53,330 bases of DNA. It comes from a virus. Position 1 is the stretch's first letter. Every line of letters begins with the position of its first letter. Below are positions 4,647 through 49,060 of the stretch, in pieces. The translations under genes were made by a program, and so were the position numbers. The stretch lies in IMG/VR virus record IMGVR_UViG_3300032323_001444, positions 1 to 53,330 of that record; one strand, given 5' to 3'. The notes under the pieces were generated by a model that was given only the letters and a program-made list of their open reading frames with translations, was not told the DNA's origin and made no database searches.

Positions 4647-4652
4647 TATACT
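4647..4652 (+). promoter_or_regulatory. -10 box for a leaderless nuclease mRNA
   Basis: TGCTATACT is an extended -10. Exactly 6 nt (CGTTTC) separate it from the ATG at 4659, so transcription should start at or next to the A of the ATG. There is no Shine-Dalgarno. It lies directly after the terminator at 4611-4640. Confidence 0.65.
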
Positions 4653-4658
4653 CGTTTC

Positions 4659-5003
4659 ATGAAGACGACCCTGTATCAATATGCTCTAAAAGATATCTCC
4701 GTCGTTGACGGAGACACACTCAAGGCTGGCATCGACTTAGGCTTTAATGTTGTACTCACGACCAAGATACGAATCGAAGGTATCAACTGTCCAGAGAAGA
4801 ATACTCCAGAAGGCGTTGCTGCTAAAAACTTCACCATTGAATGGATGATGCATAAGAAGGAACCAGTTGTCTTATGTGTGAAGAATCATAAAGAAGACAA
4901 GTACGGACGCATCCTTGGTTCCGTTATTTCTGAGGGTCAAAGTCTAACCGATGCCATAAAAATTGCCGGCCATGGTGTAGATTACGATGGAGGTAAACGA
5001 TGA
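4659..5003 (+). CDS. Staphylococcal-nuclease-like (SNase/TNase) protein
   Basis: A 114-residue OB-fold nuclease of the thermonuclease family, expected to cleave phosphodiester bonds with Ca2+. Visible signature: VVDGDT (15-20), KIRIEGINCPE (36-46) and DKYGRILG (80-87). Arg38, Glu46 and Arg84 align with the catalytic Arg35, Glu43 and Arg87 of staphylococcal nuclease. Asn43 and Cys44 stand where Asp40 and Thr41 would be, so metal binding and activity may be altered. No signal peptide, so it acts inside the cell. Predicted leaderless start. It overlaps the next gene by 4 bp. Roles in host DNA breakdown or recombination are possible. Confidence 0.85.
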   Translation: MKTTLYQYALKDISVVDGDTLKAGIDLGFNVVLTTKIRIEGINCPEKNTPEGVAAKNFTIEWMMHKKEPVVLCVKNHKEDKYGRILGSVISEGQSLTDAIKIAGHGVDYDGGKR

Positions 5004-7580: not shown

Positions 7581-7844
7581 TTATTTGATTAAGCCTAGTG
7601 ATCGGCCCTTTTTAACGGCCCTGTCCTTGGCATTCAATCCCGATACGCCTAGCTTCCAATATAGGTTATCCATATGGAATTGCACCGTACGGTGACTAAT
7701 CCCCATAGAGACGCCCATCATCTTTGCTGTGCGGTTACGCGGCAGCATCTCGAGGACTTCGAGTTCGCGTTCAGACAACGGATACTGTAACTCACTGTTA
7801 GCAGTAGCGACGTCTTTGACTTCTGTGACTTCTTGTTCTTCCAT
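7581..7844 (-). CDS. LuxR/GerE-type HTH protein (87 aa)
   Basis: A stand-alone DNA-binding domain: LSERELEVLEMLPRNRT, AKMMGVSMGISHRTVQFHMDNLYWKLGV, then a helix ending RSLGLIK. This is the four-helix GerE arrangement. There is no receiver or ligand-binding domain, so regulation would be by abundance or partner. The start at 7844 is 2 nt beyond the thyX stop; an in-frame ATG at 7868 would overlap thyX. Last gene of the dut-thyX-HTH operon. It probably regulates phage or host transcription. A related HTH-only protein lies at 46232-46609. Confidence 0.75.
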   Translation of the reverse strand: MEEQEVTEVKDVATANSELQYPLSERELEVLEMLPRNRTAKMMGVSMGISHRTVQFHMDNLYWKLGVSGLNAKDRAVKKGRSLGLIK

Positions 7845-7846
7845 AA

Positions 7847-8464
7847 TTATTCCCATACAGTAGGGCATTGTTGTCTCAGTATGGCCTGAATGATTGTGGC
7901 AACATGCTGATGTTCGTCTTGCGCCCCTTCTTCAAGACGGCTTTCAAGATAATGGATCCAGCTGCGAAGAGTTCCATTAACATACATAGTTGTTGGAGTA
8001 CACATCGGCAGCACGTTACGAGCTGTTTCAGGTGCGACACCAAACGCAATCATCTTTTCATATGTATCAAATGCTAATGCTACGGATTCATCAGCCAGGC
8101 ACTCCATCTCTCGGAGTTCAGGGTTGTCATCGTCAACGAGTGATGATTGTCTATTAGTTGGATGCTTCAGCCTAAGCTGGATAGGCATAGGCCTATCCAC
8201 AACCGGAGAATAGCGTTGAGAGAACACTTGAAAAGCCATCGACCGATGACGCTGCATTTGCATCGCTACTGCAATTGATGTTTTGACTTCAAGGCAGGCG
8301 TTTGCCATCTCAAACACTGACCAATGCTTCTTCCGCTTGCAATACTTCAGTAGCTTGGCAAAGTCTGGGTTGTCTTGATTACTAGGATTACTAACACGCG
8401 CACAGTACGCAATGTGAGCTTCGGCGTCAGGTGTTATCCATATAAGTCTAGCTTGCATCCTCAT
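7847..8464 (-). CDS. thyX: Flavin-dependent thymidylate synthase ThyX
   Basis: Makes dTMP from dUMP using methylene-THF, NAD(P)H and FAD. The family signature RHRX7S is present (Arg72-His-Arg, Ser82, then QRYS), with HWSVFE (47-52) and ARNVLP and NGTLRSWIHYLESR in the C-terminal half. 205 residues is typical. It starts in an ATGA overlap with the dUTPase gene, so the two steps dUTP to dUMP to dTMP are coupled. Presumably it supports thymidylate supply for phage DNA synthesis. Confidence 0.95.
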   Translation of the reverse strand: MRMQARLIWITPDAEAHIAYCARVSNPSNQDNPDFAKLLKYCKRKKHWSVFEMANACLEVKTSIAVAMQMQRHRSMAFQVFSQRYSPVVDRPMPIQLRLKHPTNRQSSLVDDDNPELREMECLADESVALAFDTYEKMIAFGVAPETARNVLPMCTPTTMYVNGTLRSWIHYLESRLEEGAQDEHQHVATIIQAILRQQCPTVWE

Positions 8465-10470: not shown

Positions 10471-11454
10471 ATGGACGGCTTCGATGACTTCTTAGGTGCT
10501 GTGCGCGGCTCAGTTGAAGCTGTTCGCAGAAATGCTGATCGCGCAAGAATTTTAGCTGCTGCTCGTCGTCAAGGTGCCGCACGTCGTTCAGCAGAACGTC
10601 GAGCTGATACTAATCTTAATGCAGCACGTCGGCAAGGCGCAGCACGAAGCGCAGCAGAACGTGGTGCGCGCACACAACTGGCTAATACAGTTCGTATTGG
10701 CCAAGAGCGAAATGCAGAACGCGCAGGCCGTGTAGCAGCTGAATTAGCTCGTGATTCGGCGACGCGTATTGCAGAAACCAATAAAGGACGCGCCGCTAAA
10801 GTACTTAAACTAGCCGGTAAGCTTAAGGTCGGCAATAAGAAATTACGTCGCGGACTTATTTTTGGCGTACCTGCCGCTGGTATTGTAGCTGGAGCAGCTG
10901 GGTTTGCCGGAGGTTATGTCAAGGGCAAAAAGGATGCACCAACTAAGGTCATTAGCCCACCATATGAGGATATAAAACGGCCTGGAGTAAATGCTCCAAG
11001 TTTTCGAGGAGCAGACACTGACGGATTGATCGCTGGTGGATCTTCTCCATCTTCAGCTGTGGGTGGTGGCGGAGGTGGCTACCGTGGTGGTCAGTCGTCA
11101 ATGACAGACACCATGAAGCGTAATCAGCGAGCCGTACGAGACGCTAAGTCTTATCTAGGCGAAGCGTTTGACGCTACCGTACAAAAGGGTGTTGCGACTG
11201 GACGTAAACATCTCGCTGCTATGCTTCAACGCGACGGTGTAGATAGCGACACTGGAATGCGACTAATGAAGCGTTATGACAAAGAGATTGGTAGCCAGGA
11301 ATCACTAAAGGGTTACAAGACTAGCGGAGTAACTGAAGAGTTTGACGCAGAGAATCCTAACAAGCGTGGCGCTCTGTTGTCTGCATATCGTGGTAAGTAC
11401 GCTAGTGGTACTACACTTCAGCAGATGAGGGAGAAGGCTAGTGCCTCAAGATAA
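10471..11454 (+). CDS. Ala/Arg-rich protein (327 aa) with one membrane-like segment
   Basis: The first ~100 residues are an Ala/Arg-rich probable coiled coil with repeats (ARRQGAARRSAERRA, ARRQGAARSAAERGA). A hydrophobic Gly/Ala stretch follows at about 127-150 (LIFGVPAAGIVAGAAGFAGGY). Then comes a Gly/Ser linker and a C-terminal domain shared with the preceding gene's product. GAGGGG lies upstream and only 1 bp separates the genes. Coiled coil plus a membrane-like helix would fit an ejection protein, but there is no direct evidence. Function unknown. Confidence 0.65.
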   Translation: MDGFDDFLGAVRGSVEAVRRNADRARILAAARRQGAARRSAERRADTNLNAARRQGAARSAAERGARTQLANTVRIGQERNAERAGRVAAELARDSATRIAETNKGRAAKVLKLAGKLKVGNKKLRRGLIFGVPAAGIVAGAAGFAGGYVKGKKDAPTKVISPPYEDIKRPGVNAPSFRGADTDGLIAGGSSPSSAVGGGGGGYRGGQSSMTDTMKRNQRAVRDAKSYLGEAFDATVQKGVATGRKHLAAMLQRDGVDSDTGMRLMKRYDKEIGSQESLKGYKTSGVTEEFDAENPNKRGALLSAYRGKYASGTTLQQMREKASASR

Positions 11455-12478
11455 CCTTCTTGGTCAACTACTAGGCTTGCCTGGTCAAATTGCGCAAGGT
11501 ATGTATGACGATGCGCGAGATGACGTAAGAGGTTTCGTAAAAGGTATCAATCCCGGCTACATTGGAGCTGGGATTGGTGCTGGGTTAGCTCAATCTGGCA
11601 TAGAAGGTGGAAAGGCTCTTGTACGCGGTATTACTGGCGGTAGATACGCTAAAGCTGCTGCTGACATTGTGCCTAAGATGGCCCGATCAAAAGGCGTCAT
11701 GCAAACCATTGGCAACGCTGGTAAGTTTGTTGGCGATTCAGCAAAGTTTGCCGGCAATCAGCTAGGTCGTATCGGGCCTGTAGCTCAAATTGTTGCTGGT
11801 GAGATACTTAATCCACGTCCTGCTGATATGAGTGCTGAATACGAAAAGATGTTATTTAACGTCACGGAACCTCTTTCAAAATGGCAAGCTGAATATAGAA
11901 AACGCGGTGAAGCGTTTGATCCTAATTTTGAAAAACTTCATAACCTAATGCAGCCATTGAAGACGATGAAGTTTAATGGTGGCTACATTGATAGGAATAT
12001 TTTAAACACTATCTATAAAGAACTTTACAATGATCCATCTATGGACATTAAGTCGTTTATGGACAAAGCATTCGTCGAAAAGAAGCCAGGCTTTAACGCA
12101 GGTAAACTGCAAGACTGGAAGCGTGTTCTTGATAACCCAGATGAATTGGATCAACCACGGATTACTCTTCCTGTGCTTAAATCGCAGCGTACAGATGAAG
12201 AACGTGGCATGGCATTACCTCAAGACAGATATGCACCTATGCCACAAATTGCACCTAATTACAGCCAGATAGATAGCGTTCGTGATCTGACTGCAATGGC
12301 AGGCGCACGCGGTAGGGCGAATACCTTGACAAAAGGTATACCAAATCGTTTTACACGTACACAGGGTGGATTGAATGCAGCACGACAGGCGGTATACGGA
12401 AAGCCTGCTGGAGCAACAGGTGGCAAGGCGAAGACATTATTCGCGCGTGCGACCAGAGCGATCAAGAAAAACTTTTAG
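11441..12478 (+). CDS. Hypothetical protein (345 aa) before terminase
   Basis: Not recognised. The GTG start at 11441 follows GGAGAAGG and overlaps the preceding gene by 14 bp. The N-terminal ~130 residues are Gly/Ala-rich with amphipathic stretches (NPGYIGAGIGAGLAQSGIEGG). The middle is helical with YEKMLFNVTEPLSKWQAEY, and the C-terminus is basic (RATRAIKKNF). Third of three unknown proteins ahead of terminase. Its 3' end overlaps the opposite-strand gene 12437-12694 by 42 bp. Probably virion-related by position. Confidence 0.65.
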   Translation: MPQDNLLGQLLGLPGQIAQGMYDDARDDVRGFVKGINPGYIGAGIGAGLAQSGIEGGKALVRGITGGRYAKAAADIVPKMARSKGVMQTIGNAGKFVGDSAKFAGNQLGRIGPVAQIVAGEILNPRPADMSAEYEKMLFNVTEPLSKWQAEYRKRGEAFDPNFEKLHNLMQPLKTMKFNGGYIDRNILNTIYKELYNDPSMDIKSFMDKAFVEKKPGFNAGKLQDWKRVLDNPDELDQPRITLPVLKSQRTDEERGMALPQDRYAPMPQIAPNYSQIDSVRDLTAMAGARGRANTLTKGIPNRFTRTQGGLNAARQAVYGKPAGATGGKAKTLFARATRAIKKNF

Positions 12479-12694
12479 TACATCGTCCGCAGCAGTGTGG
12501 TCTTTAGTCACATCGTAGACTAGGTACCACACTGCTTTTTGTATGTCATCTAGTTTAGATTCCTGACTCTTCTTCCCAGCTCGTTGAATATACTTCAGTG
12601 ACATGGTTAGCCACCGGCTAAGGTCCCATGCGTCTGCAACCGTGCATGTATCAATAGATGTTTGCCGGTAATGGTCTGGTGCTGTTTTATTCAT
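12437..12694 (-). CDS. DUF3310-like protein, antisense within the late arm
   Basis: 85 residues with the pattern of phage DUF3310 proteins: H-Y near the N-terminus (DHYRQ), ADAWDLSRWLTMSLKYIQRAGKK, then LDDIQKAVWYLVYDV. In that family the LKYI.R..KK and DL.KA.WYL blocks are the hallmark. Function is poorly known; nucleotide metabolism links have been proposed. It is the only minus gene within 8984-46184. It converges with and overlaps the 11441-12478 gene, and diverges from the TerS-like gene from a shared palindromic -10. The ATG is exactly 6 nt past TATACT with no ribosome site, so it is predicted leaderless. Confidence 0.75.
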   Translation of the reverse strand: MNKTAPDHYRQTSIDTCTVADAWDLSRWLTMSLKYIQRAGKKSQESKLDDIQKAVWYLVYDVTKDHTAADDVLKVFLDRSGRTRE

Positions 12695-12700
12695 CGGTCC

Positions 12701-12708
12701 AGTATACT
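12701..12708. promoter_or_regulatory. Palindromic -10 driving two divergent leaderless genes
   Basis: AGTATACT is its own reverse complement, so it presents TATACT on both strands. On the minus strand TATACT, 6 nt (GGACCG), then the ATG of the DUF3310-like gene. On the plus strand TATACT, 7 nt, then the ATG at 12716. It overlaps a second perfect palindrome, ATACTTGCAAGTAT (12704-12717), reaching into the plus start codon; this could be an operator. Confidence 0.65.
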
Positions 12709-12715
12709 TGCAAGT

Positions 12716-13507
12716 ATGTTCGACTCAAAAGGTGTTGATGACCCATTTTTCATAGAGAAAGATGACGGCCTATATCGGAAAACTGGAAACGGTTACGCTA
12801 AGTGCTGCACTGCCATCATCCGAGATGGTGACGTAAATCGTCATTGTAAAAACGTAGCGTTACGCGGTAAGGAATACTGTTCACATCATGGGTCAACTCA
12901 CCTTAAAAAGTCAGAGAAACCACAGTACCTTCAACACATATTCCAGAAAGAACGCAACAGATTTAAACGTGTAGGCACAGAACTACTTGCGAAAGTTGAT
13001 AACTATCGAGACGATCCAGACTTATTCAGTTTGCGTGATGACACAGCCTACGTCACGGCGCTAGTTGACGTTAGGGCTGAAGCAGCTGCTGAAGGTGTGG
13101 GTTTAGAACAATACCGTAAGATTGAGTCTGCTTATCACCTTGCAAAATCTAAGTTAGGTTCCCCTGACTTTATAGATGCGTTTGAGCAGATTGGTGATTT
13201 ACTTAACGAGCGCATGAACGAGTACGATGCAAGTAAGGATGTACTCGAACTTATTAGTCGTCGCGCGGCATTAGTTGAATCAGAACAACGCATGATGCAG
13301 ACAAAGGCGTATACAATTGAAGCTGACCAGGCACTCATGCTTGTGATGCAAATTGTTGAAGTTGTTAAATCATCTATTCGCGATCAGGAAGAGTTAATTG
13401 CAATTCGAAGCGGTATCAATAAACTTCTACGGATGTATACATCTGGAGATGAAGACATACAGGAAGCGGAAGTAGTAGAAACAAATGGCATTCCCGAAAG
13501 TACCTAA
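12716..13507 (+). CDS. Putative terminase small subunit with zinc-finger-like N-terminus
   Basis: 263 residues from the ATG at 12716; a longer frame from 12662 would read through the promoter and is rejected. The N-terminus has a Cys/His cluster (C30, C31, C44, C55, H57, H58, ending YCSHHG), as in other phage proteins next to TerL. The rest is helical with acidic segments, ending EAEVVE. It lies directly upstream of TerL with a 23-bp overlap, the usual TerS position. A small subunit would recognise the packaging site. The assignment rests mainly on position and the Cys/His motif. Confidence 0.65.
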   Translation: MFDSKGVDDPFFIEKDDGLYRKTGNGYAKCCTAIIRDGDVNRHCKNVALRGKEYCSHHGSTHLKKSEKPQYLQHIFQKERNRFKRVGTELLAKVDNYRDDPDLFSLRDDTAYVTALVDVRAEAAAEGVGLEQYRKIESAYHLAKSKLGSPDFIDAFEQIGDLLNERMNEYDASKDVLELISRRAALVESEQRMMQTKAYTIEADQALMLVMQIVEVVKSSIRDQEELIAIRSGINKLLRMYTSGDEDIQEAEVVETNGIPEST

Positions 13508-15206
13508 GGAGTTTAAACAGTTCACGCGTAGTGATAAGCCATTGTCTGTCGCATTACTTGAAGCATTAGACGCACAGATTTCAGATGTCATAAAGACTGG
13601 TGACTACGACAGTGGGCGCGCATTCGCTATAGATGGAGCCAAATTGGATTACAGCACATGGTTGAGAACATATGCTCCACACGCTATGTCATCGTCTCTT
13701 GGTGAACATCACAAGCGCGCGTGGGATTGGGCTGAGGGTATAACGCCTGGAGTCGCTCCGCCAGCATTGATCGAGTGCTGGTTTCGTGGTGGTGGCAAGT
13801 CTACTACCATGGAGCATATTGCTGCTCGCATCGCTGTAAAAGGTACTCGCCGTTTTCTCCTATACGTCTGTTCAACACAAGAAGCTGCCGACCGCCACGT
13901 ATCAGATATTGGCCACACGATGGAGCGTTGTGGAATTGAAAGAGCGCTTAATAAGTATGGTTTTTCAAAGGGATGGAATGCTTCGAAACTTCGGACCGCT
14001 AACGGATTTAACGTGTTGGCGTTTGGGCTGGATACTGGCGCTCGCGGTGTCAAGCTCGATCACTTGCGTCCTGATTTCATCATTCTTGACGACATTGATG
14101 AACTTGATGACAGTGTTAATCGTGTTGATAAGAAGATCTCTACGATAACACAGACTATTCTTCCGGCTAAAAGTACAGACTGCGCAATCGTATTTGTTCA
14201 GAACAAGATTCATGCAAACAGTGTTATGGCCCAGGTTCTATCTGGTGAGTTGGACATGCTCCAGTATCGCGTTCAATCTCCTATTGTCCCTGCTGTCAAA
14301 GGTCTTACATACGAACCGTTTGAACGCGAGGATGGTCGTACTGGTTACAGGATTACAGGTGGAACAAACACATGGTCTCACAAAAGTATGGAAGTTTGTC
14401 AACGTGAAATCGATGACTATGGCATCATTTCGTTTTTACGTGAATGCCAGCATGAAGTAGGTGTTGGTGGTAGATTCTTCCCAGAATTCCAGGAGTACGA
14501 TACGTCTGGTAAACCATGGCACGTTGTCGATCACGTTCAGGTGCAACCATGGTGGCGTGTATGGGCATCCCATGACTTTGGTACTGGAGCGCCGGCTGCC
14601 ACATTATTGTACGCATCGGACGAGAATGAAGACATCTATGTCATTGGTGAGATATACGAAGCTGGCCGGGTAAGTTCTAAGCAAGCCGAAGATACGTTAC
14701 AGTTACTCAAAGAGCGTGGATATGCAGCCCCTGTCAATAAAGACAAGCCTGACGGGCCTTGGTTGACGAAGCTTGAGGCTATTGCTTTCGACTGGGCAAA
14801 CACTTTTCCTCCGAAGAATCACGAGCAGCGCATCGGTGAATATCCTGTCGAGGTTTGGTGGCGCCGTGGACTTCCAGCTGTTGCTGCCGTTAAAGATCGT
14901 AAAGCTGGATGGAGACGATTGAAAGAATGGTTAGCGGCAGTGCGCGTGAAGGACGGCCAGCACAATCCACGTTTTAAGATTGTGCGACGCGCATGTCCTA
15001 ACTTGATTCGAGAACTAACCGCAGCAATGGCAGATCCAAAAGATCCGGAAGATCTCGATAGTGGGACAAAGTCCGACCACGCCTTGGACTCATGTCGTTA
15101 TGGTGTTATGTGGCGTGAATATCCTGTCACTTGTCCAGAGACACAAGGTAAGACTCCCTGGAAACCAATATGGATGCAGGACAACAATGAGGACAAGTTC
15201 GTATGA
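13485..15206 (+). CDS. terL: Terminase large subunit
   Basis: Packaging motor ATPase and nuclease, 573 residues. Walker A variant RGGGKST (101-107), Walker B FIILDDID (198-205), and a nuclease domain with SHDFGTGAP near residue 360, AFDWANTFP, and DHALDSCRYG at about 531. It translocates DNA into the prohead and cuts the concatemer. No intein or frameshift. The stop overlaps the start of a 47-aa membrane gene (ATGA). The packaging type cannot be decided here: no terminal repeats are visible at the window ends. Confidence 0.95.
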   Translation: MAFPKVPKEFKQFTRSDKPLSVALLEALDAQISDVIKTGDYDSGRAFAIDGAKLDYSTWLRTYAPHAMSSSLGEHHKRAWDWAEGITPGVAPPALIECWFRGGGKSTTMEHIAARIAVKGTRRFLLYVCSTQEAADRHVSDIGHTMERCGIERALNKYGFSKGWNASKLRTANGFNVLAFGLDTGARGVKLDHLRPDFIILDDIDELDDSVNRVDKKISTITQTILPAKSTDCAIVFVQNKIHANSVMAQVLSGELDMLQYRVQSPIVPAVKGLTYEPFEREDGRTGYRITGGTNTWSHKSMEVCQREIDDYGIISFLRECQHEVGVGGRFFPEFQEYDTSGKPWHVVDHVQVQPWWRVWASHDFGTGAPAATLLYASDENEDIYVIGEIYEAGRVSSKQAEDTLQLLKERGYAAPVNKDKPDGPWLTKLEAIAFDWANTFPPKNHEQRIGEYPVEVWWRRGLPAVAAVKDRKAGWRRLKEWLAAVRVKDGQHNPRFKIVRRACPNLIRELTAAMADPKDPEDLDSGTKSDHALDSCRYGVMWREYPVTCPETQGKTPWKPIWMQDNNEDKFV

Positions 15207-36249: not shown

Positions 36250-36287
36250 CATACCTGCAAAGTACTCTACAGTACAATGCAGGTATG
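36250..36287. promoter_or_regulatory. 38-bp palindrome over the promoter and start codon of the giant gene
   Basis: CATACCTGCAAAGTACT (36250-36266), a 4-bp centre, and AGTACAATGCAGGTATG (36271-36287): 15 of 17 positions pair. The right arm contains the -10 TACAAT (36273-36278), 6 nt, and the ATG (36285-36287). It could be an operator for a repressor. In RNA read through from upstream it would form a hairpin that buries the start codon, so only the leaderless transcript would be translatable. Confidence 0.65.
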
Positions 36288-39200
36288 AATGAACGTCAAC
36301 TCAGACAATATCAATCAATTGCTCCCACTGTTAAAGCTCTGCGGGATTCCCCAGACTTAAGTACTAAAGCAGGTGCGCGAGATTATATTGCTAACGGTAG
36401 TCAGTACGATGACGTCTTATTCTCTAAATCATTCACGCGTAATGTAGATAGGCTCTTCAAGGAAGGCTTAGTAACACGCGACGATAAAGTTACTCTCGCA
36501 AAGTTTAAAGCTAGTCGTGCAGTAGAACTTGTCAACGATCAAGACAAGCGGCAGTACTTCACTCCTGACAATGAGTATCGTCCGGACCTTTCACCTGAAG
36601 CCATCTATGGTCTTCGTCAGTCTGCTAAGCAAGACTTTGGTAAACAGATTCAACAGACTCGCGAAGACGAAGAAGAATATCTAGGCAAACTGAAGTACAC
36701 GCGCGATGACGTGCAACGGTGGAATGATCAACCGTACACATTCCGTGATTTACAGACAGGTTTTGAACAACTTCCAGATGCTGGCGCTGGTGTCATATCT
36801 GGCATGAATAAGCCTATACAGGCAATGATTGAAGGTCGGCAGTCTGGAGATCCTAGCCTAGCCTATCAACAAAGTAACAACCCTCTTGTCGCGGCAGGAG
36901 AAGCATTCGGTACACCATTCCAAGAGCGTGTAGCTTCGATGCCTGGGACTATCTTCGGAGGAACACTCGGTTTCCGTGGAGCCGGCGGTCTAGCTGCGAT
37001 GCTCGCACCAAAGAAGTACAAGGGCGCTGCCTACCTCATGGCTGGCCTAGTTGGTGCTGCTGGTGGTGGAACGTTAGCCACAGACCTTAACTCCAATGTG
37101 AATGATAAAGCATTCGAGTTGATGCTTGGTTCAGCTGCCCTCAAGGCAAAGGAAGATTACAAAGGGCAACTAGCTGCCGACTATCCATTGATGTCGCGTG
37201 CTGGATCTATTGCTGGCGACCTGATGTTCTTTGCACCTAGCCTGAAGATTCCAGGTGTTGGTCTGCGTGAAGCCGCACGTCAGATATCGCAACGCGGTGT
37301 AACTAAAGCGCTGAAGAATACACAAGTACAAGCAACTGTCAGTGATATTGGCGACCGATCCATTGAAGCTGCACAGGGTATGTTTGAATCGTATCAACAG
37401 AGCGAGGCGGCAAAAGCTAAGGGTGGATTTGGATTGTCTCCTCAGGAGATTCTCTTTAATGGTGCAATAGGTGCATTGCTTGGTGGTGAGACACCATTGG
37501 GTAAAGCTTCGTTTGAATTTGCTAACAAGGTAACAGACCCAGCCTACGCACTTAACAAGCTTACAGAACTTCGACAGTCTAGAGAACTAGGTAAGCCAGC
37601 ACGCCCAATCGAGTCAGATATCACACCTTACGGTGGAGATGGACTCGAGCGCCTGAACCTTGGTGGTCGATACACGCCGGGTGTGGACTCTGCGGGTAGA
37701 CCAATACTTGCGGGTGCTGAGTATGCAGTTTATGACCGTGCTAATCGTAAGGCAAGCATAGTAGAAGATATGGCGTTACCTCTCGAGGGACGCCGATCTC
37801 AATATGCCGCCGAGCAATTGCAGACTATGACTGCTTTGTTCCAGCGCCAACCTGTCATTGCATACAGTGATAGGAAGTCAGGTGTAACTCGTAACATCAT
37901 TGGTATATCCAGAGACGCTGGTGTAGTAGTACGTGATGTAACTCCTGATGGCCGAAGCAAGATTATGGTCGTCCCAGTTAGTGCTATCTCCAACAAGAAG
38001 ATTGCAGAGAAACTGGTAGACACAATGTCGGCCCAGGGTGTAGCACCTAACGAACGACCGTCACAGTTTAATCCAGACAACTTTGATAACGCTGACCGAT
38101 ACGTTTACAAGCAGAACATCTATCTTGAAGAAGGCTTGGAGCCAGTTCCTGGTCGTGTTATTAAAGCTGTTGGTGATCCACGCCAGGGAATGTATATTGT
38201 TGGTTTGCCTGATGGTACACACATCCGTGTCAATGAGGGTCAGATCAATATCGATGACACGTCTGGTGCTAAGCCTGAAGTATTAGGCAACATCCGTGAC
38301 GAATACTTCCCTACGTATCTTGGAGAACTTGCACCACAAGAGCGCGTAGGTCGAATGCAATGGAAGTTCTATGATCCAGATTCCAACACAGCTGACGTAA
38401 TAGAACTCACACCAGAACAGAACCGCGCTGTTTCTCGTGCTAGGTCCGCAAAGAGTTACCTGTTCGATAACGCTCGGGCTATTACTGATAAGAAGTCTCG
38501 TGACCTAGCCATCGAGGCAGCACGATCTGAGATAGCTGCTGACGTAGAAGAGGCTATGGGATTTGAGCCTGCCGACGGTAGATTCAAGCGCGCTGATGTA
38601 ATCGACGTTATGACTGCTGAGTTTGGCCAACAGACTGCAATCGTGACGGAACTAACTCCACGCGGATATAAAGTGCGACTCGTTGATTATCCACGTAAAG
38701 CCGCCTTTGTCGTGCAGAATCCCATGGTTGTCGCCGATCAACTAGGTAACCCAATCACTCCAGCTGAAGCAGAGACAATGATTGGAGAGGATGTAGACGG
38801 AGATGGTAGCATTGGATCCGTTTCCGCGCGTACACCTACGGAAGGGGCCGAAGATACTGCTGTAGAGCCAGAGATGACTCCAGTTGAATCACGGGCTACT
38901 GAAGATGTTGATGTTATTGAACTAACATCAGCAACAAAGGGTCGTGTCAACAGCGCATTGCGTAACCTGTTGGAGTCAGAGGACTTCACTGATATGTTCC
39001 CTGAATTGGGAACCGCCGAGCCGGCTGTTGAACCTGAATCCCCTATAGTTGAAGATACTACCGCCGTAGAAGGTGAACCTGCCGATGAAACAGTTGTTGA
39101 GGGTGAACCAGAAATCCTTGGTAGCGATGTATTGCCAATGCGTGAATCAGTTGATACTGATGTCGCAGATACTGAGGCTACGACAGAATTTACATCAGCC

Positions 39201-42200
39201 AGGACATTCAATGTCCGAACCAGATACAAGCACGTATACGGAACTATAGATCGTAACGATAACGGTACCGTCTCTCTACAACTGCGTCTACAAGAGTTTA
39301 ACCCAAAGGGTGAGGTCACTGGCGACTACCGTACAACGTACGCGCTTCGTGGTAATCCAGACGGAAGCTTTAATCTTTACAACTCCATGTCGAGTCCTGA
39401 TGCTACTGGTACTCCAGATGCTGTATATACACCAGCAACCTCTCTGGGGCGTCGTGACGCCATTAATAAGGCTATTCAGTACTCAGTTGCGTACGCTACT
39501 GGCCAGGCAGTACGAGATCGAACGTTTGTCATTACTGCTCATCTTGCAGATTCGACAGCAGATGATGCCGAGAAGGCACGCAAAGCTGCTGAACTTGCAG
39601 ATAAGGCTGAAGCCCGTAAGCGTGAGCGCGAGGAAGCTGAAGCAAAACGTGAGGCCGAGCGCGAGCGTGAGCGTCAGTTCCGTCGTGAGTTGCTTGATAA
39701 GCAATTGGAAGCACGTCGTATTCAAGAAGAAGCTAATCGTGAATTACGTCGCCAACAAATTGAAGTAGACAGAATGAAGGCAGCTAAGACTGCTGAACTT
39801 GAAGCAGCCAAACTTGCTATCGATGAACTTACTGCCAAGTTAGCAGCAGAGCAGACTCGTGCGTCTGACCAACAGCAAGAATTACGCGACGAGTTGGCCA
39901 AGATTAGAACAGAACTTGGTCAAGCAGCCGCTGCGGCAGCAGCTGCGCGTAGCGAAGAGGCGCGTCAGATTGCTGAGGACCTACGTAAGGAGTTACTGGA
40001 CCAGAAGGCGCAATACGAAGCGGCGATCGCAAGTCTACAACGCATCATCGAGAATGGCCGACCACAAACAAGTACAGACCTATCGTCAATGCAGGACTTG
40101 ATTGAGGCGCTTACAAAGGCTATTACAGATGCCAATGAACGATCGGCAAACATAGCGGCTGCGTCAAGTATAAGCGACGCTGCACTGGCAGAGCTTACGG
40201 ATAAGCTAAATAAGTCAATTGAAGAGGCTAAGCGTCGCGAGGAAGCTTACCTAGCTGAGATACAGGCCGCTAAGGACGAACTCGAAAGACTTAAGCGTGA
40301 ACTGGAAGCAGCACGCAATAATGCTGATGATGCTGGTCGTTCAAGAGGTCGGTCACGTCGTCGTGTACGTGAGCGCCCAATGATCGACGAAGCGCCATCT
40401 GATGTCGTTAATAGTCGTGTCATTGAGACTGTATTACTTGATATAGGCGGCGATGTGATGGAGGTTGAGGCAACACCAGTTGCAAACCAACGACAACTAC
40501 AAACTGTACTAGTAGAGCAATATAAATTCAGTAGTGACGGCGCTTACTTCTTTAGTGGTATTGTTGACAACTTTGCCCGTGCGTGGGCTGTGCGACAAGT
40601 CGAGGCAGGTGGCCGTACGGTTTTAGGTACACACTCTGACTTAATGACATCTGGCCGATCTGGTGAAACAGTAGTCGAGGTGACTGATGAAGAAGGAAAC
40701 CTCATTGATGAGATGGTCTACCGGACTATGTTCAACACCGACCCTGCGGTACTAAAAAGCATTGCGTCGTACATGCGCGTGTTCTACAAAGAGCGCCTTG
40801 CTTCCTTTGCTTTCATTAATGACGCAACAAAACTTGATGCCGAAGCCAAGGGGTTTATTTTTACGCGTGCTAAGCAGACCGGCATGTCAACTAACGTCAT
40901 AGTTGGTTTGGCAGCTAGAGATCAGTTGACAGGTATCCATGAAGTAGTTCATGCCCTCATTCGTGGGATGGATTCCGAATCACGTCGTAAATTAGTCAAC
41001 CAACTTAGTAGGGCTGGCATCAACGAGGTTGTTGATATTGATAATCTGCCTGCACATATCGAAGAACAACTGGTAGCCATGATGGTTGCCGATATTCAAA
41101 ACGGTGTGGCGCCGCGTCGTATAGAAGAAGTACTGCAAAAAGACGGAACAAAGGTCCGTAAACAAGTAGCACCTGCTCAAGGCTTAGGGACTGTTTATCA
41201 AGGTACGCGTCGTTACCTGAACAGTGTTATTCAAACAATTGCTGCTAAGCGTCCTATTCGTCGTGGTCCAGACGGTACATACACAGTACGTTGGAGCGCT
41301 CCATATACAGGTGCAAGAATCTTTGCTGGTACGGGATTGCGTATTGATCACAATGGCAAGAAGCAATGGGTTACAGCTAAGAAAGCTATGACACCCACGC
41401 AGGAAGAATTCGACCGCTTCCCTGGGAGCCGTACTCGCATGGGTTACGTTAGTGTTACTGATGGCACTAACGTATTCGATGTACCTGTTACAAGTGTGAT
41501 TGAGTACGGTGGATTGACCAACGGTATGAATGCAAACTTGATGGATACATTGAGTTCATTCATTGGTTCTTACTACTTCGAACACTTGAAGTGGCTGAAA
41601 GCATCTGAACCACAGATGTTTGAAGGTTTCACAGAGCCAGGTGATGATGGGCTTGGCGATACAGGTGGCGATGGAACAGGAGATGATGGTGGCGGCGATG
41701 GCGATGGCACTGGTGATGATACTGGTGACGATGAAGACGGAACTGGTGACGATGAGGATGGCACAGGTGATGATAACACCGGAGATGGTGTATGGATGCC
41801 ACGCGGTGCCACAGGTATTCTAAAGTACGAATCAAACAAGCCATTAACTGCGCGTGATTATGACTTCCCAATATTCCTGATCAAATCCGTGAATATGTCC
41901 GACGCTACGATTGAAGCGTACTCTGACTTTGCTAAGTCAATGGGCGTACCACGCGAAAACGTATTCGTGTTCTCAAACCCGCCAAGGCTTAAGGACTTTG
42001 GACCACTCAATCCAGACCAACAGATATTCTCGATATCAGGATCAAACACCGCACCAATTGGATACGGTGTTGACTTCCGACGTCAGATCATTGAGAAAAA
42101 TCCACGATTCGGACCCGGCATCAATGTACACACGTTAGGGCAATTAATCCGTAGTCAAGAGACAAAGGATGCATACACTAATTTTGCTACCGCATTTGCT

Positions 42201-45200
42201 GATGTCAATGGTGAACTTTTTGATCGTGTAATCAAGATGCGTTACGCGCAGCCATCCACTACCAGTCGTGTTTACGATCCACTGCAAAGTATGTCTAACA
42301 TCCAAAACCTGGCATACATAATGAAGACTGCTGTCGATGGTGCTAGTAGAGATGTGACACCAGAAATGCTCAATGACCTTGAGCCTGTAACTGTAATCCG
42401 ACGTATGTATCGTAACGAAGGATTCTCAGGTCTCGTTCAGCTTGCTTCATTCTTGCATAACAGCCCGTCATTGCGTAATAGCATTAAGCATCCTGTCCTA
42501 CGTAAGTTCTTGTCGAATATGTCTCCTGTGGCAGATCCAGGTAATACGGTCCAACAAACCTTATTGAAGATGATTAACACGCCTGACGTATTCAATACTG
42601 TTCCAGAATACGCAGACGATAATGCGTTCAATGTAAGAAGCACAGACGTAACTCGTGACCAGCTCGTTGCTTTGTATGCTCCATCTCTGAATGACGCTCA
42701 CCTAAACAGATTCCTAGAGGGTCTTGGTGATAACAAGCGACGTGTAGAAAAGTTCAGAGAACCCGTCAAAGACATGATCCAAACGTTCAGAAAGATGTCT
42801 GGATTCAATGAATACATTAACTCAACGCCGGGATCTCGTGCTGCATTAAACAAGCTTGATACTCTTGTTACCGTTGGTGAAGTAGCGTCTGCATTATCGA
42901 TGCATAAAACCATTGGTGAGATGGGTGTCATCCTTAGCCAGCAAGTCGTCCCAGATGGCGACTACAGTAAGTTACATCGTGCATATATGCAACGGCTTGT
43001 CGCATCTGGAATCGAAGCTAATAAGGCTGTAGCAAACATATGGACTCTCAATACCAAAGAAGGTAGAGGTAGTGACTTTGCCTATGCTCCACGTAGTATT
43101 GATGGAGATACATTCACATACCAACGTGTCAAAGGAAGTAGTGACCTACCAAAGGGGACAGTAATAGTAAGCCGTAGTGGTGATGCAAAGCTACGGAAAG
43201 ACGACGGAACTGTAGTCAATCTTCCAGTAAGCAACACTGTCAAAGCGTTATCTGTCAACTCGGGGATCGCAATCCGTGATACTAAGATGCCTATCAACAG
43301 GTATGTACTGACGGCAGCTCACCTAATGGAATTTGGTGGTGAATTCAATAGCGTTATACCGATGTCTCAGTTCATGTTTGAACGAGTTGATTCCGGTGAT
43401 GACATTGTTGCAGGTGACGCATTCATACAGCAGCCTGACATACTGAAGCAAACCAAGATCGGTATGACCCAACTCGCTAAGTCTGATCGTTTGACGATTG
43501 GTACAAACGGTAGAGTAACAGCTGTTCGCGATTATAGAGGTAACTCATCTCACGCCTTCCGTATGATGACTAATGTCATGGGTATGTCTCCAAACCAGGC
43601 TGCCGCCCATTACTCACGTACAGAATCACCAGACTTCAAACAATGGTCTGGAGGTAATCCTCTGGTTGAGTCTGTTTATAATGCTGACATCAGACCAGAC
43701 GTAACCATTGGAGATGTTCCAGCGTCGTATCTTAGTTCAATCCGTAAGTACATGTCGGGTCAGGATGCATTGGCTATTCTTGACGAGATGGCTGACTCAT
43801 CTGTTATCACTGAAGATGATGTTGAATCATTGTCAGTTGCAATCGATGACTTCTATCGAGGTGAGAAAAAGCCTAAGACAATCAAACAGATTGTTGACTT
43901 TGCATCCAAGGATAGTGTGAAGACTGCATCAGTTAAATTTGCTATCCAACAGGACATGAAACAGTCTAAGTTCGATGTTGCAAGGACAGTACTCAAGGAT
44001 GCTACTGCTTACAAAGAAGCAGCCTTGCGTCCTCGAACTGGCAAGCCTTTAGTTACCATTGGATTCGTACCTGATACTGCTACATCTATCTGGTTGCGGT
44101 CCAGCCAGGGATACATCCTTCCATCTGGTGTAGATCGTCTTACAGGCCAAAACAAGAAGATGAAGTATGTCCGTATGGACAACCCAGTCGTTATTGATCT
44201 GAATGGCGGCGGTATGGATGCAGGCACTGTAAGTAAACTGTTGGTCAAACATAAGAACCGTGACGGCATTGTGTTCCTCAATGTGAAGCACAGTGTGGGT
44301 GGAGACAATGCGTTGCAAAACGTAGCTGTGCCACGCAACTCTTATCCTGCACTCAATGTCGCATCATGGACCAAAAAGGATACAGCAAGTAAGGTTACTC
44401 GTATCGCTGAACCAATGACGGTCATGTATGAGCGTGTAGATTCAACAGATGACATGGCATACGATGCAACGCCGGCGCCTATGCCTATCCGAGTTGATTA
44501 CTCTGATATGCGTGGACCGACAATGCCAGAGAAGTTCATCCCGGTAAAGAAACCGGAGAAGTATCAGGTACTCGGGAACATAGTTGACCAGTTCAACGAT
44601 ATCTCGCGTCTCGTACTATCAGCTGACTTTGCATTTACCACATTGCAGGCTGGCCTTATCCTGCTTACCAACCCAGCTGTTGGTATCAAGGCATTGATTG
44701 CTGGCTTCCGAGGCTTCTTCGCACCAAACATGCAACTTGAATTCAATGGTAAGACCTATGGTACTCGTAAGTTTGGACGCGAGGTCTTTCATAAGATCGG
44801 TAACGAACTTCGTGCGATGGATGTATACGAAGAAGCTCGAGAAGCTCAGCTGCCTTTGACTATGTTCACTATCGATGAGCGGCTACGGGATGCACAAGAA
44901 CTCGAGTTATACAACCTGCGCCGCATAAACCCTAACGCTACCATGGACGATGTCAAAACGACGTTGATGGATATCGACGAGCTGGGTACAAATGACGAAT
45001 GGTTCCTTAAAGGCCGTTGGACCCAACACATTCCAGCTCAGGGTATGTTTGAGCGTTACAACGCAATCGTCCACGATATGGTCCTACTGCTACAGTTCGA
45101 CCACATGAAGAAAGCCATCATGGCTCATGGATACATTCCAGGATCCGAGAAGTACAATACTGCGCTTCGTGATTCAGCTCGTATACTTGCGGTTAGTGTA

Positions 45201-46184
45201 GGTGATATCAAATACTCTACTAACAGTGAGACGGACGCCAAAGCGTCACGTATCTTCAAGGTTTTGTTCACGGCGCCACGATGGTTACTATCTAGGGCAT
45301 TGGTCGATCCAATTATCAATAATGTCTTGTCGTCATCATCATTCGGATTCCTACGTAATGTGATGGGCCAGGATAACCCGGTGTTCGATCTATACAAGGG
45401 TGATAAGGCGGCCGCAGCAATTGGTAAGAAGATGTGGGGCCGTATGGCTGGAGCCTGGTTGTTCCTCATGTTCTTCTCGCAGTTGATTGCAGATCGGCTA
45501 CCTGAAGGTACTGAGGTTGAAACAAACACGGACCGCAACTTTGGTCGCATCCGTGTTGGCGACTTCCGTATTGATCCACCAGCTGGTGTTTACGACCACT
45601 ATCGCCTTGCATTCCGACTAGCACAGGCTGCATGGATGGTGACACCATCCGAGCAGAAGAAAGCCAAGGAAGCTGGTACGACTGTTATGCGAGATACATT
45701 CGATGACTTGCATCGTGAGTTCACGTACAAGGCGAGTCCTCTGTACAACTTCATCAGTGGTGCATTCTTTACAGGACGTACTCCAATCGGTGAGCCAATG
45801 TTTGGAGAAAGTGAAAGCTTCTCGTACGTTTACGATAAGTTCGTGAAACCTCGCCTGATCGAGATCAATGGTGGTTACAAACCATGGATGGATGATGTTT
45901 CGGTTTCGAATGCATTCATTGAGCGCTTCCCGACCGCGGTAGCAACAGTCCTTGACACTATGTCTGCAACAGATAAGTTCGAAGGTAATACAGCGGCTTA
46001 TACTGCTGCAAGTCAAATGCTCAACAGCTTTGGACTCAAGGCTGAGATTAAGCCACAGAAAGCAATCAAGGAACGCAAGCAGGAAACAAACCTTTACACC
46101 GCAGAGGAAACACCTAATATTCTTGACCTACTCAAGGGTGGGAAGTTAGGTAAGGCAATAACAGGAGGTACCTATGACCAGTAA
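36285..46184 (+). CDS. Giant 3299-residue polyvalent ejection protein with metalloprotease motif
   Basis: The largest gene, nearly 19% of the window. Regions in order: mixed helical N-terminus with a Gly-rich hydrophobic part (about 220-265); an acidic linker (about 836-970); long Glu/Arg coiled coils (about 1087-1265 and 1315-1365) ending in an Arg/Ser stretch; a zinc-protease motif HEVVH at 1552-1556 with EEQLVA some 37 residues later as a possible third ligand; a Gly/Asp linker with GTGDD repeats (about 1786-1835); and a C-terminal hydrophobic region (about 2780-3150, TLQAGLILLTNPAVG, then MWGRMAGAWLFLMFFSQL) resembling domains at the ends of large polyvalent phage proteins. It is probably packaged and ejected into the host ahead of DNA. 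Predicted leaderless start. Confidence 0.85.
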   Translation: MNERQLRQYQSIAPTVKALRDSPDLSTKAGARDYIANGSQYDDVLFSKSFTRNVDRLFKEGLVTRDDKVTLAKFKASRAVELVNDQDKRQYFTPDNEYRPDLSPEAIYGLRQSAKQDFGKQIQQTREDEEEYLGKLKYTRDDVQRWNDQPYTFRDLQTGFEQLPDAGAGVISGMNKPIQAMIEGRQSGDPSLAYQQSNNPLVAAGEAFGTPFQERVASMPGTIFGGTLGFRGAGGLAAMLAPKKYKGAAYLMAGLVGAAGGGTLATDLNSNVNDKAFELMLGSAALKAKEDYKGQLAADYPLMSRAGSIAGDLMFFAPSLKIPGVGLREAARQISQRGVTKALKNTQVQATVSDIGDRSIEAAQGMFESYQQSEAAKAKGGFGLSPQEILFNGAIGALLGGETPLGKASFEFANKVTDPAYALNKLTELRQSRELGKPARPIESDITPYGGDGLERLNLGGRYTPGVDSAGRPILAGAEYAVYDRANRKASIVEDMALPLEGRRSQYAAEQLQTMTALFQRQPVIAYSDRKSGVTRNIIGISRDAGVVVRDVTPDGRSKIMVVPVSAISNKKIAEKLVDTMSAQGVAPNERPSQFNPDNFDNADRYVYKQNIYLEEGLEPVPGRVIKAVGDPRQGMYIVGLPDGTHIRVNEGQINIDDTSGAKPEVLGNIRDEYFPTYLGELAPQERVGRMQWKFYDPDSNTADVIELTPEQNRAVSRARSAKSYLFDNARAITDKKSRDLAIEAARSEIAADVEEAMGFEPADGRFKRADVIDVMTAEFGQQTAIVTELTPRGYKVRLVDYPRKAAFVVQNPMVVADQLGNPITPAEAETMIGEDVDGDGSIGSVSARTPTEGAEDTAVEPEMTPVESRATEDVDVIELTSATKGRVNSALRNLLESEDFTDMFPELGTAEPAVEPESPIVEDTTAVEGEPADETVVEGEPEILGSDVLPMRESVDTDVADTEATTEFTSARTFNVRTRYKHVYGTIDRNDNGTVSLQLRLQEFNPKGEVTGDYRTTYALRGNPDGSFNLYNSMSSPDATGTPDAVYTPATSLGRRDAINKAIQYSVAYATGQAVRDRTFVITAHLADSTADDAEKARKAAELADKAEARKREREEAEAKREAERERERQFRRELLDKQLEARRIQEEANRELRRQQIEVDRMKAAKTAELEAAKLAIDELTAKLAAEQTRASDQQQELRDELAKIRTELGQAAAAAAAARSEEARQIAEDLRKELLDQKAQYEAAIASLQRIIENGRPQTSTDLSSMQDLIEALTKAITDANERSANIAAASSISDAALAELTDKLNKSIEEAKRREEAYLAEIQAAKDELERLKRELEAARNNADDAGRSRGRSRRRVRERPMIDEAPSDVVNSRVIETVLLDIGGDVMEVEATPVANQRQLQTVLVEQYKFSSDGAYFFSGIVDNFARAWAVRQVEAGGRTVLGTHSDLMTSGRSGETVVEVTDEEGNLIDEMVYRTMFNTDPAVLKSIASYMRVFYKERLASFAFINDATKLDAEAKGFIFTRAKQTGMSTNVIVGLAARDQLTGIHEVVHALIRGMDSESRRKLVNQLSRAGINEVVDIDNLPAHIEEQLVAMMVADIQNGVAPRRIEEVLQKDGTKVRKQVAPAQGLGTVYQGTRRYLNSVIQTIAAKRPIRRGPDGTYTVRWSAPYTGARIFAGTGLRIDHNGKKQWVTAKKAMTPTQEEFDRFPGSRTRMGYVSVTDGTNVFDVPVTSVIEYGGLTNGMNANLMDTLSSFIGSYYFEHLKWLKASEPQMFEGFTEPGDDGLGDTGGDGTGDDGGGDGDGTGDDTGDDEDGTGDDEDGTGDDNTGDGVWMPRGATGILKYESNKPLTARDYDFPIFLIKSVNMSDATIEAYSDFAKSMGVPRENVFVFSNPPRLKDFGPLNPDQQIFSISGSNTAPIGYGVDFRRQIIEKNPRFGPGINVHTLGQLIRSQETKDAYTNFATAFADVNGELFDRVIKMRYAQPSTTSRVYDPLQSMSNIQNLAYIMKTAVDGASRDVTPEMLNDLEPVTVIRRMYRNEGFSGLVQLASFLHNSPSLRNSIKHPVLRKFLSNMSPVADPGNTVQQTLLKMINTPDVFNTVPEYADDNAFNVRSTDVTRDQLVALYAPSLNDAHLNRFLEGLGDNKRRVEKFREPVKDMIQTFRKMSGFNEYINSTPGSRAALNKLDTLVTVGEVASALSMHKTIGEMGVILSQQVVPDGDYSKLHRAYMQRLVASGIEANKAVANIWTLNTKEGRGSDFAYAPRSIDGDTFTYQRVKGSSDLPKGTVIVSRSGDAKLRKDDGTVVNLPVSNTVKALSVNSGIAIRDTKMPINRYVLTAAHLMEFGGEFNSVIPMSQFMFERVDSGDDIVAGDAFIQQPDILKQTKIGMTQLAKSDRLTIGTNGRVTAVRDYRGNSSHAFRMMTNVMGMSPNQAAAHYSRTESPDFKQWSGGNPLVESVYNADIRPDVTIGDVPASYLSSIRKYMSGQDALAILDEMADSSVITEDDVESLSVAIDDFYRGEKKPKTIKQIVDFASKDSVKTASVKFAIQQDMKQSKFDVARTVLKDATAYKEAALRPRTGKPLVTIGFVPDTATSIWLRSSQGYILPSGVDRLTGQNKKMKYVRMDNPVVIDLNGGGMDAGTVSKLLVKHKNRDGIVFLNVKHSVGGDNALQNVAVPRNSYPALNVASWTKKDTASKVTRIAEPMTVMYERVDSTDDMAYDATPAPMPIRVDYSDMRGPTMPEKFIPVKKPEKYQVLGNIVDQFNDISRLVLSADFAFTTLQAGLILLTNPAVGIKALIAGFRGFFAPNMQLEFNGKTYGTRKFGREVFHKIGNELRAMDVYEEAREAQLPLTMFTIDERLRDAQELELYNLRRINPNATMDDVKTTLMDIDELGTNDEWFLKGRWTQHIPAQGMFERYNAIVHDMVLLLQFDHMKKAIMAHGYIPGSEKYNTALRDSARILAVSVGDIKYSTNSETDAKASRIFKVLFTAPRWLLSRALVDPIINNVLSSSSFGFLRNVMGQDNPVFDLYKGDKAAAAIGKKMWGRMAGAWLFLMFFSQLIADRLPEGTEVETNTDRNFGRIRVGDFRIDPPAGVYDHYRLAFRLAQAAWMVTPSEQKKAKEAGTTVMRDTFDDLHREFTYKASPLYNFISGAFFTGRTPIGEPMFGESESFSYVYDKFVKPRLIEINGGYKPWMDDVSVSNAFIERFPTAVATVLDTMSATDKFEGNTAAYTAASQMLNSFGLKAEIKPQKAIKERKQETNLYTAEETPNILDLLKGGKLGKAITGGTYDQ

Positions 46185-49020: not shown

Positions 49021-49060
49021 ATAACCTCTCCCCATTTGTTTATACACCAGCAGGCAAGTA

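Follow-up and report, generated by a model that had tools for sequence, protein, structure and literature searches.

A palindromic -10 element that probably serves two divergent, apparently leaderless genes in uncultured tailed phages of one family

Comparison of a phage junction with its relatives suggests that the 8-bp element AGTATACT, at positions 12701..12708 on both strands, is probably a -10 common to both directions of a bidirectional promoter, which selection has maintained in the narrow space separating two leaderless genes. The window, the whole stretch of 53,330 nucleotides that we analyzed (IMG/VR virus record IMGVR_UViG_3300032323_001444, positions 1 to 53,330), belongs to a family of uncultured tailed phages, and viral contigs searched with TerL, TerS, and DUF3310 provided about 120 distinct relatives for comparison. 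What this comparison shows is the location of the element, the two start codons, the fixed spacing from -10 to ATG in both directions, and the loss of the left half of the element where the left gene is absent. The shared -10 would be recognized by a host-type sigma-A/70 RNA polymerase; in one orientation, melting of the shared TATA and a start at about 12715-12716 would give a leaderless terS-terL mRNA, and in the opposite orientation a start at about 12694 would give a leaderless DUF3310 mRNA. The predicted divergent start sites are 21-22 bp apart (22 bp for leaderless starts at 12694 and 12716), and bidirectional promoters are a class in which divergent start sites, mapped on RNA, lie 7-25 bp apart. 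Two papers on such promoters describe how -10 symmetry allows polymerase to bind in both directions, with starts separated by 18, 10 or 23 bp (PMC12825309, PMC10268837). On our best reading, the mechanism at this junction is one that is already known, a bidirectional promoter of the roughly 23-bp class, here placed between two leaderless genes.

The left gene (12437..12694, minus strand) encodes an 85-aa DUF3310 protein (PF11753), and is predicted to be leaderless with a -10 that ends 6 nt before its ATG. The Pfam match (E=1.2e-6) scores 28.9 bits, above the curated cut-off of 24, and the start appears well placed, given that no earlier start follows the preceding stop than the one at 12694 and that the domain begins at residue 4. 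Substitutions in its own reading frame, moreover, indicate purifying selection on DUF3310 (dN/dS of about 0.05-0.11 against close relatives). The right gene (12716..13507, plus strand), also predicted to be leaderless with a -10 ending 7 nt before the ATG, encodes a TerS-like protein of 263 aa with an N-terminal Cys/His motif that is kept across the family. Searches of this protein against PHROG and Pfam gave no PHROG hit and no convincing family match; its identity rests on its position before a clear gene for the terminase large subunit (TerL; 13485..15206, plus strand; phrog_38, E=8.9e-30), and 38 relatives were retrieved by the TerS search. The homologue of 12716 is the sole possible TerS start in several relatives, and upstream starts at 12662 or 12671 were ruled out because they are missing from several relatives. 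A strong terminator, consisting of a hairpin of -27 kcal/mol and a T-run (12491..12540, plus strand), closes the upstream operon, so that TerS needs its own promoter. This hairpin lies inside the 3' coding region of DUF3310 and is without a T-run on the minus strand. Although a first, sequence-only reading of the window had described DUF3310 as antisense to the terminase, the two genes are head-to-head and divergent, and DUF3310 instead overlaps, tail-to-tail, the 3' 42 nt of the last gene of the upstream operon (11441..12478, plus strand).

The gap between the two genes (12695-12715; cggtccAGTATACTtgcaagt) is bounded by CAT, which is the DUF3310 ATG on the minus strand with its A at 12694, and by the TerS ATG at 12716. 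That reading's account of the element holds in full, in that AGTATACT is its own reverse complement and presents TATACT in both directions, at 12703-12708 on the plus strand and at 12706-12701 on the minus strand, 6 nt from the DUF3310 start and 7 nt from the TerS-like start. The opposite-strand hexamers therefore overlap, as in bidirectional promoters, with TATA in common, and A12701 pairs with the final T of the left hexamer. Because both mRNAs would begin at their start codons, the whole 21-bp gap would be filled by two discriminators of 6-7 nt and the 8-bp element, and the palindromy would be perfect because two TATACT boxes must overlap in such a space. An 8-bp palindrome is unremarkable by itself, since one occurs within a random 21-mer of the same composition with P=0.054, and the window contains one copy of AGTATACT against 0.9 expected. 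The chance of -10 hexamers matching at 5/6 or more positions, at a gap of 5-8, on both sides is P=0.006. It is the placement of AGTATACT relative to both start codons, together with its conservation, that is beyond chance. A possible left-facing -35, TTGAGT (12723..12728, minus strand), is separated from TATACT by a 16-bp spacer and lies inside TerS codons; TTG-type hexamers are found 16-18 bp upstream in several relatives as well, where they are codon-constrained. No canonical right-facing -35 was seen at the junction, and Rfam and tRNA scans gave no matches.

Both genes look leaderless throughout the family, judging from the spacing and letters of the comparison. Of 28 distinct DUF3310/TerS junctions, 25 have a DUF3310 -10 that ends exactly 6 nt before the ATG and reads TATACT, TATTAT, TAATAT or TATAAT; in the other three, all from one lineage, it ends 9 nt before the ATG. 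A -10 is likewise found 6-7 nt ahead of the ATG in numerous TerS relatives, both those that have DUF3310 and those that do not, even where it reads TATTAT, TAATAT or TAACAT, and this retention of spacing where the letters differ argues that the TerS -10 behaves as a promoter rather than as a protein site. Across seven family phage genomes, moreover, 18 copies of TATA(A/C)T end at a distance of 6-7 nt from a following ATG, compared to about one for each other gap. Leaderless genes are marked, according to published work, by a TA-like signal some 12 bp ahead of the start codon (PMC3160421), and in M. tuberculosis TANNNT has been reported to occur with no -35 (PMC3898074). Here the first T of TANNNT is at -13 for TerS and at -12 for DUF3310. 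No Shine-Dalgarno is conserved in the gap, the discriminators differ among relatives, and a GGA found 4-6 nt before the DUF3310 gene of the window is not conserved in them. Two further genes of the window, which belong to the TATA(A/C)T peak at gaps of 6-7, also look leaderless: an endonuclease-like gene directly after a terminator (TATACT+6+ATG, 4647-4661, plus strand, with its start at 4659) and the dUTPase gene (TATAAT+6+ATG, 8931-8917, minus strand, with its start at about 8919). In four relatives (L331, L332, L342, and L343) the DUF3310 and TerS start codons are just 14 nt apart, and TerS seems to use a TATAAT within the DUF3310 coding region.

Comparison of junctions with and without the left gene suggests that left-facing symmetry tracks the presence of DUF3310. 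Within the TerS clade to which the window belongs, AGTATACT is invariant at junctions with a divergent DUF3310 gene (19/19 distinct sequences), and all 16 of the 16 junctions without it carry TGTATACT or CGTATACT instead. These variants keep TATACT for TerS, but the left-facing hexamer becomes TATACA or TATACG, so that its final T alone is gone and the left-facing score falls from 6.9 to 1.6-2.0. The two DUF3310-less groups of the clade differ in the base that replaces this T. On the tree, the state of DUF3310 changes four times, and the two independent pairs on well-supported (starred) branches are both concordant; with just two such pairs, significance is out of reach for co-evolution. The claim that a single -10 is common to two divergent leaderless genes is nevertheless backed by this comparison of relatives. 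Transcription in both directions would accord with the conservation of both genes and the retention of their -10s. We consider it very unlikely that TATACT drives TerS alone, with left symmetry as a by-product and DUF3310 expressed otherwise or hardly at all. Such a one-way promoter would fit the nearly symmetric nature of -10 boxes and the retention of the right -10 in relatives without DUF3310, but not the purifying selection on DUF3310, the exact 6-nt spacing of its -10 in most junctions, or the finding that, in the clade, the final T of the left hexamer occurs only together with the gene.

Outside the clade, DUF3310-containing junctions pack the two boxes in other ways, with an ATAAT/TATTAT overlap (L157), AGTATACAAT (L156), or a second AGTATACT with the TerS -10 at 12 nt (L327 and L330), and the right-facing hexamer at a gap of 5-8 is weak in L175, L223, and L331, which are lineages with DUF3310. 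Counterexamples also exist here, in that L046, L252, and L344 are without DUF3310 yet have good left-facing hexamers; the left-facing hexamers of DUF3310-less relatives outside the clade are a matter of chance or of inherent symmetry. In L099 (332-541), and also in L094, L105, and L114, which belong to one of the two DUF3310-less groups of the clade, a diverged DUF3310 homologue is found on the minus strand, some 4.4 kb upstream and behind a further minus-strand ORF whose end it overlaps, an apparent relocation of the gene. In L156, L158, and L159, a small Lys-rich gene stands between the divergent promoter and TerS, the GTG start of which overlaps the stop of the small gene.

The sequence-only reading had also pointed out a second perfect palindrome overlapping the right start codon, and ATACTTGCAAGTAT (12704..12717, both strands) is indeed a perfect 14-bp palindrome made of two inverted, overlapping copies of ATACTTGC. 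With the start codons counted, a 14-bp palindrome would arise in a random 21-mer of the same composition with P=0.0009, and the 53-kb window has two palindromes of this length. Its conservation is limited to the closest relatives of the window (90-100% TerS identity); the dyad is broken in L141, L142, L152, L155, and the DUF3310-less clades, and a role as a conserved operator was ruled out by this loss in sister lineages. That AGTATACT and/or ATACTTGCAAGTAT might not be a promoter core but an operator bound by a dimeric regulator is a reading we hold to be extremely improbable. The over-representation of ATACTTGC in the window (11 copies against 2.6 expected) and its presence here as two inverted copies speak for such an operator; against it stand the absence of the 14-bp palindrome from sister lineages and the behavior of distant junctions, which swap the 8-mer for other -10-like hexamers with unchanged spacing. 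In the ranking of noncoding-enriched 7-mers of the family, TACTTGC is second and TACCTGC third (about 1e-5, uncorrected). TACYTGC occurs in the window at 1027, 3310, 6547, 9262, and 12705 on the plus strand and at 49054 on the minus strand, and also at loci L115-L128. Lying within -10s or promoter spacers, TACYTGC is a candidate operator, and the motif merits separate study.

Simultaneous binding in both directions is impossible because the two hexamers overlap, and from this the earlier reading had derived a mutually exclusive switch. Published tests do not support that step, since basal firing of all five E. coli bidirectional promoters tested was too low for competition, which was negligible, and one side was repressed only upon strong activation of the other (PMC12825309). 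We therefore think it unlikely that DUF3310 is fired early and that a phage regulator later boosts the right side until polymerase occupancy shuts DUF3310 off, although the early expression or cytotoxicity of DUF3310 proteins in lactococcal and mycobacterial phages makes an early-to-late handover thinkable, TerS is a late-type gene, and an activated direction can repress the opposite one (PMC12825309). The TACYTGC 7-mers, which are enriched in the family's noncoding DNA, overlap the shared promoter, and the phage encodes a possible regulator, a LuxR/GerE-type HTH protein of 95 aa (7581-7868, minus strand; Pfam E=2.4e-12). Its gene lies downstream of those for thymidylate synthase and dUTPase. 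The junction, however, has no conserved regulator site, with TATACTTGC replaced by TATACTTAC or TATACTTGT. A full timing device would place an early, host-directed DUF3310 and the late packaging operon on one -10, with an activator, perhaps one that reads TACYTGC, redirecting polymerase to the right, and the start of packaging would itself shut off DUF3310; this strikes us as decidedly doubtful. For the bidirectional promoter that we prefer, both directions may simply be co-expressed rather than switched. Single-base variants at A12701 and T12708 would provide a clean test of polymerase competition.

The element resembles the bacterial bidirectional promoters of Warman et al. 2021 (cited in PMC12825309; PMC10268837) in its overlapping opposite-strand -10s between predicted divergent starts and corresponds by geometry, with hexamers offset by 2 bp and a predicted separation of 21-22, to roughly the 23-bp class. 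Unlike the promoters described there, it lies in phage DNA as an exact 8-bp palindrome and is associated with predicted leaderless mRNAs, and its symmetry is conserved together with the gene pair. In Actinobacteria and others, leaderless (TA-led) genes similarly have TANNNT about 12 bp upstream and no conserved -35 (PMC3160421, PMC3898074); the present case differs in that two leaderless genes would use one box and in that the host, probably actinobacterial, is predicted from phage relatives. Among the titles and abstracts found, no paper was recognized that connects leaderless genes to bidirectional promoters in phages. The DUF3310 protein has the same Pfam domain as the T7 gp1.7-type nucleotide kinase, SaV of lactococcal phages, and toxic proteins of mycobacteriophages, whereas here it is a stand-alone 85-aa form beside the terminase. 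An actinobacterial host is likely, given that the portal relatives among named phages are from Microbacterium and Cellulosimicrobium phages and that TerL matches are mostly in Arthrobacter phages; a search for TerL relatives in genome contigs, made to find the host, returned none. If correct, our assignment provides an example from nature of promoter symmetry in two directions that is kept or lost with the gene that it serves, which bears on whether such promoters are functional or noise. It also indicates how far a promoter and its start codons might be compressed with leaderless mRNAs (21 bp, and 14 in some relatives), and points to leaderless expression as common in an uncultured phage family. 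Elsewhere in the window, a single ORF of 3,299 aa (36285-46184, plus strand) is present within this 53-kb phage.
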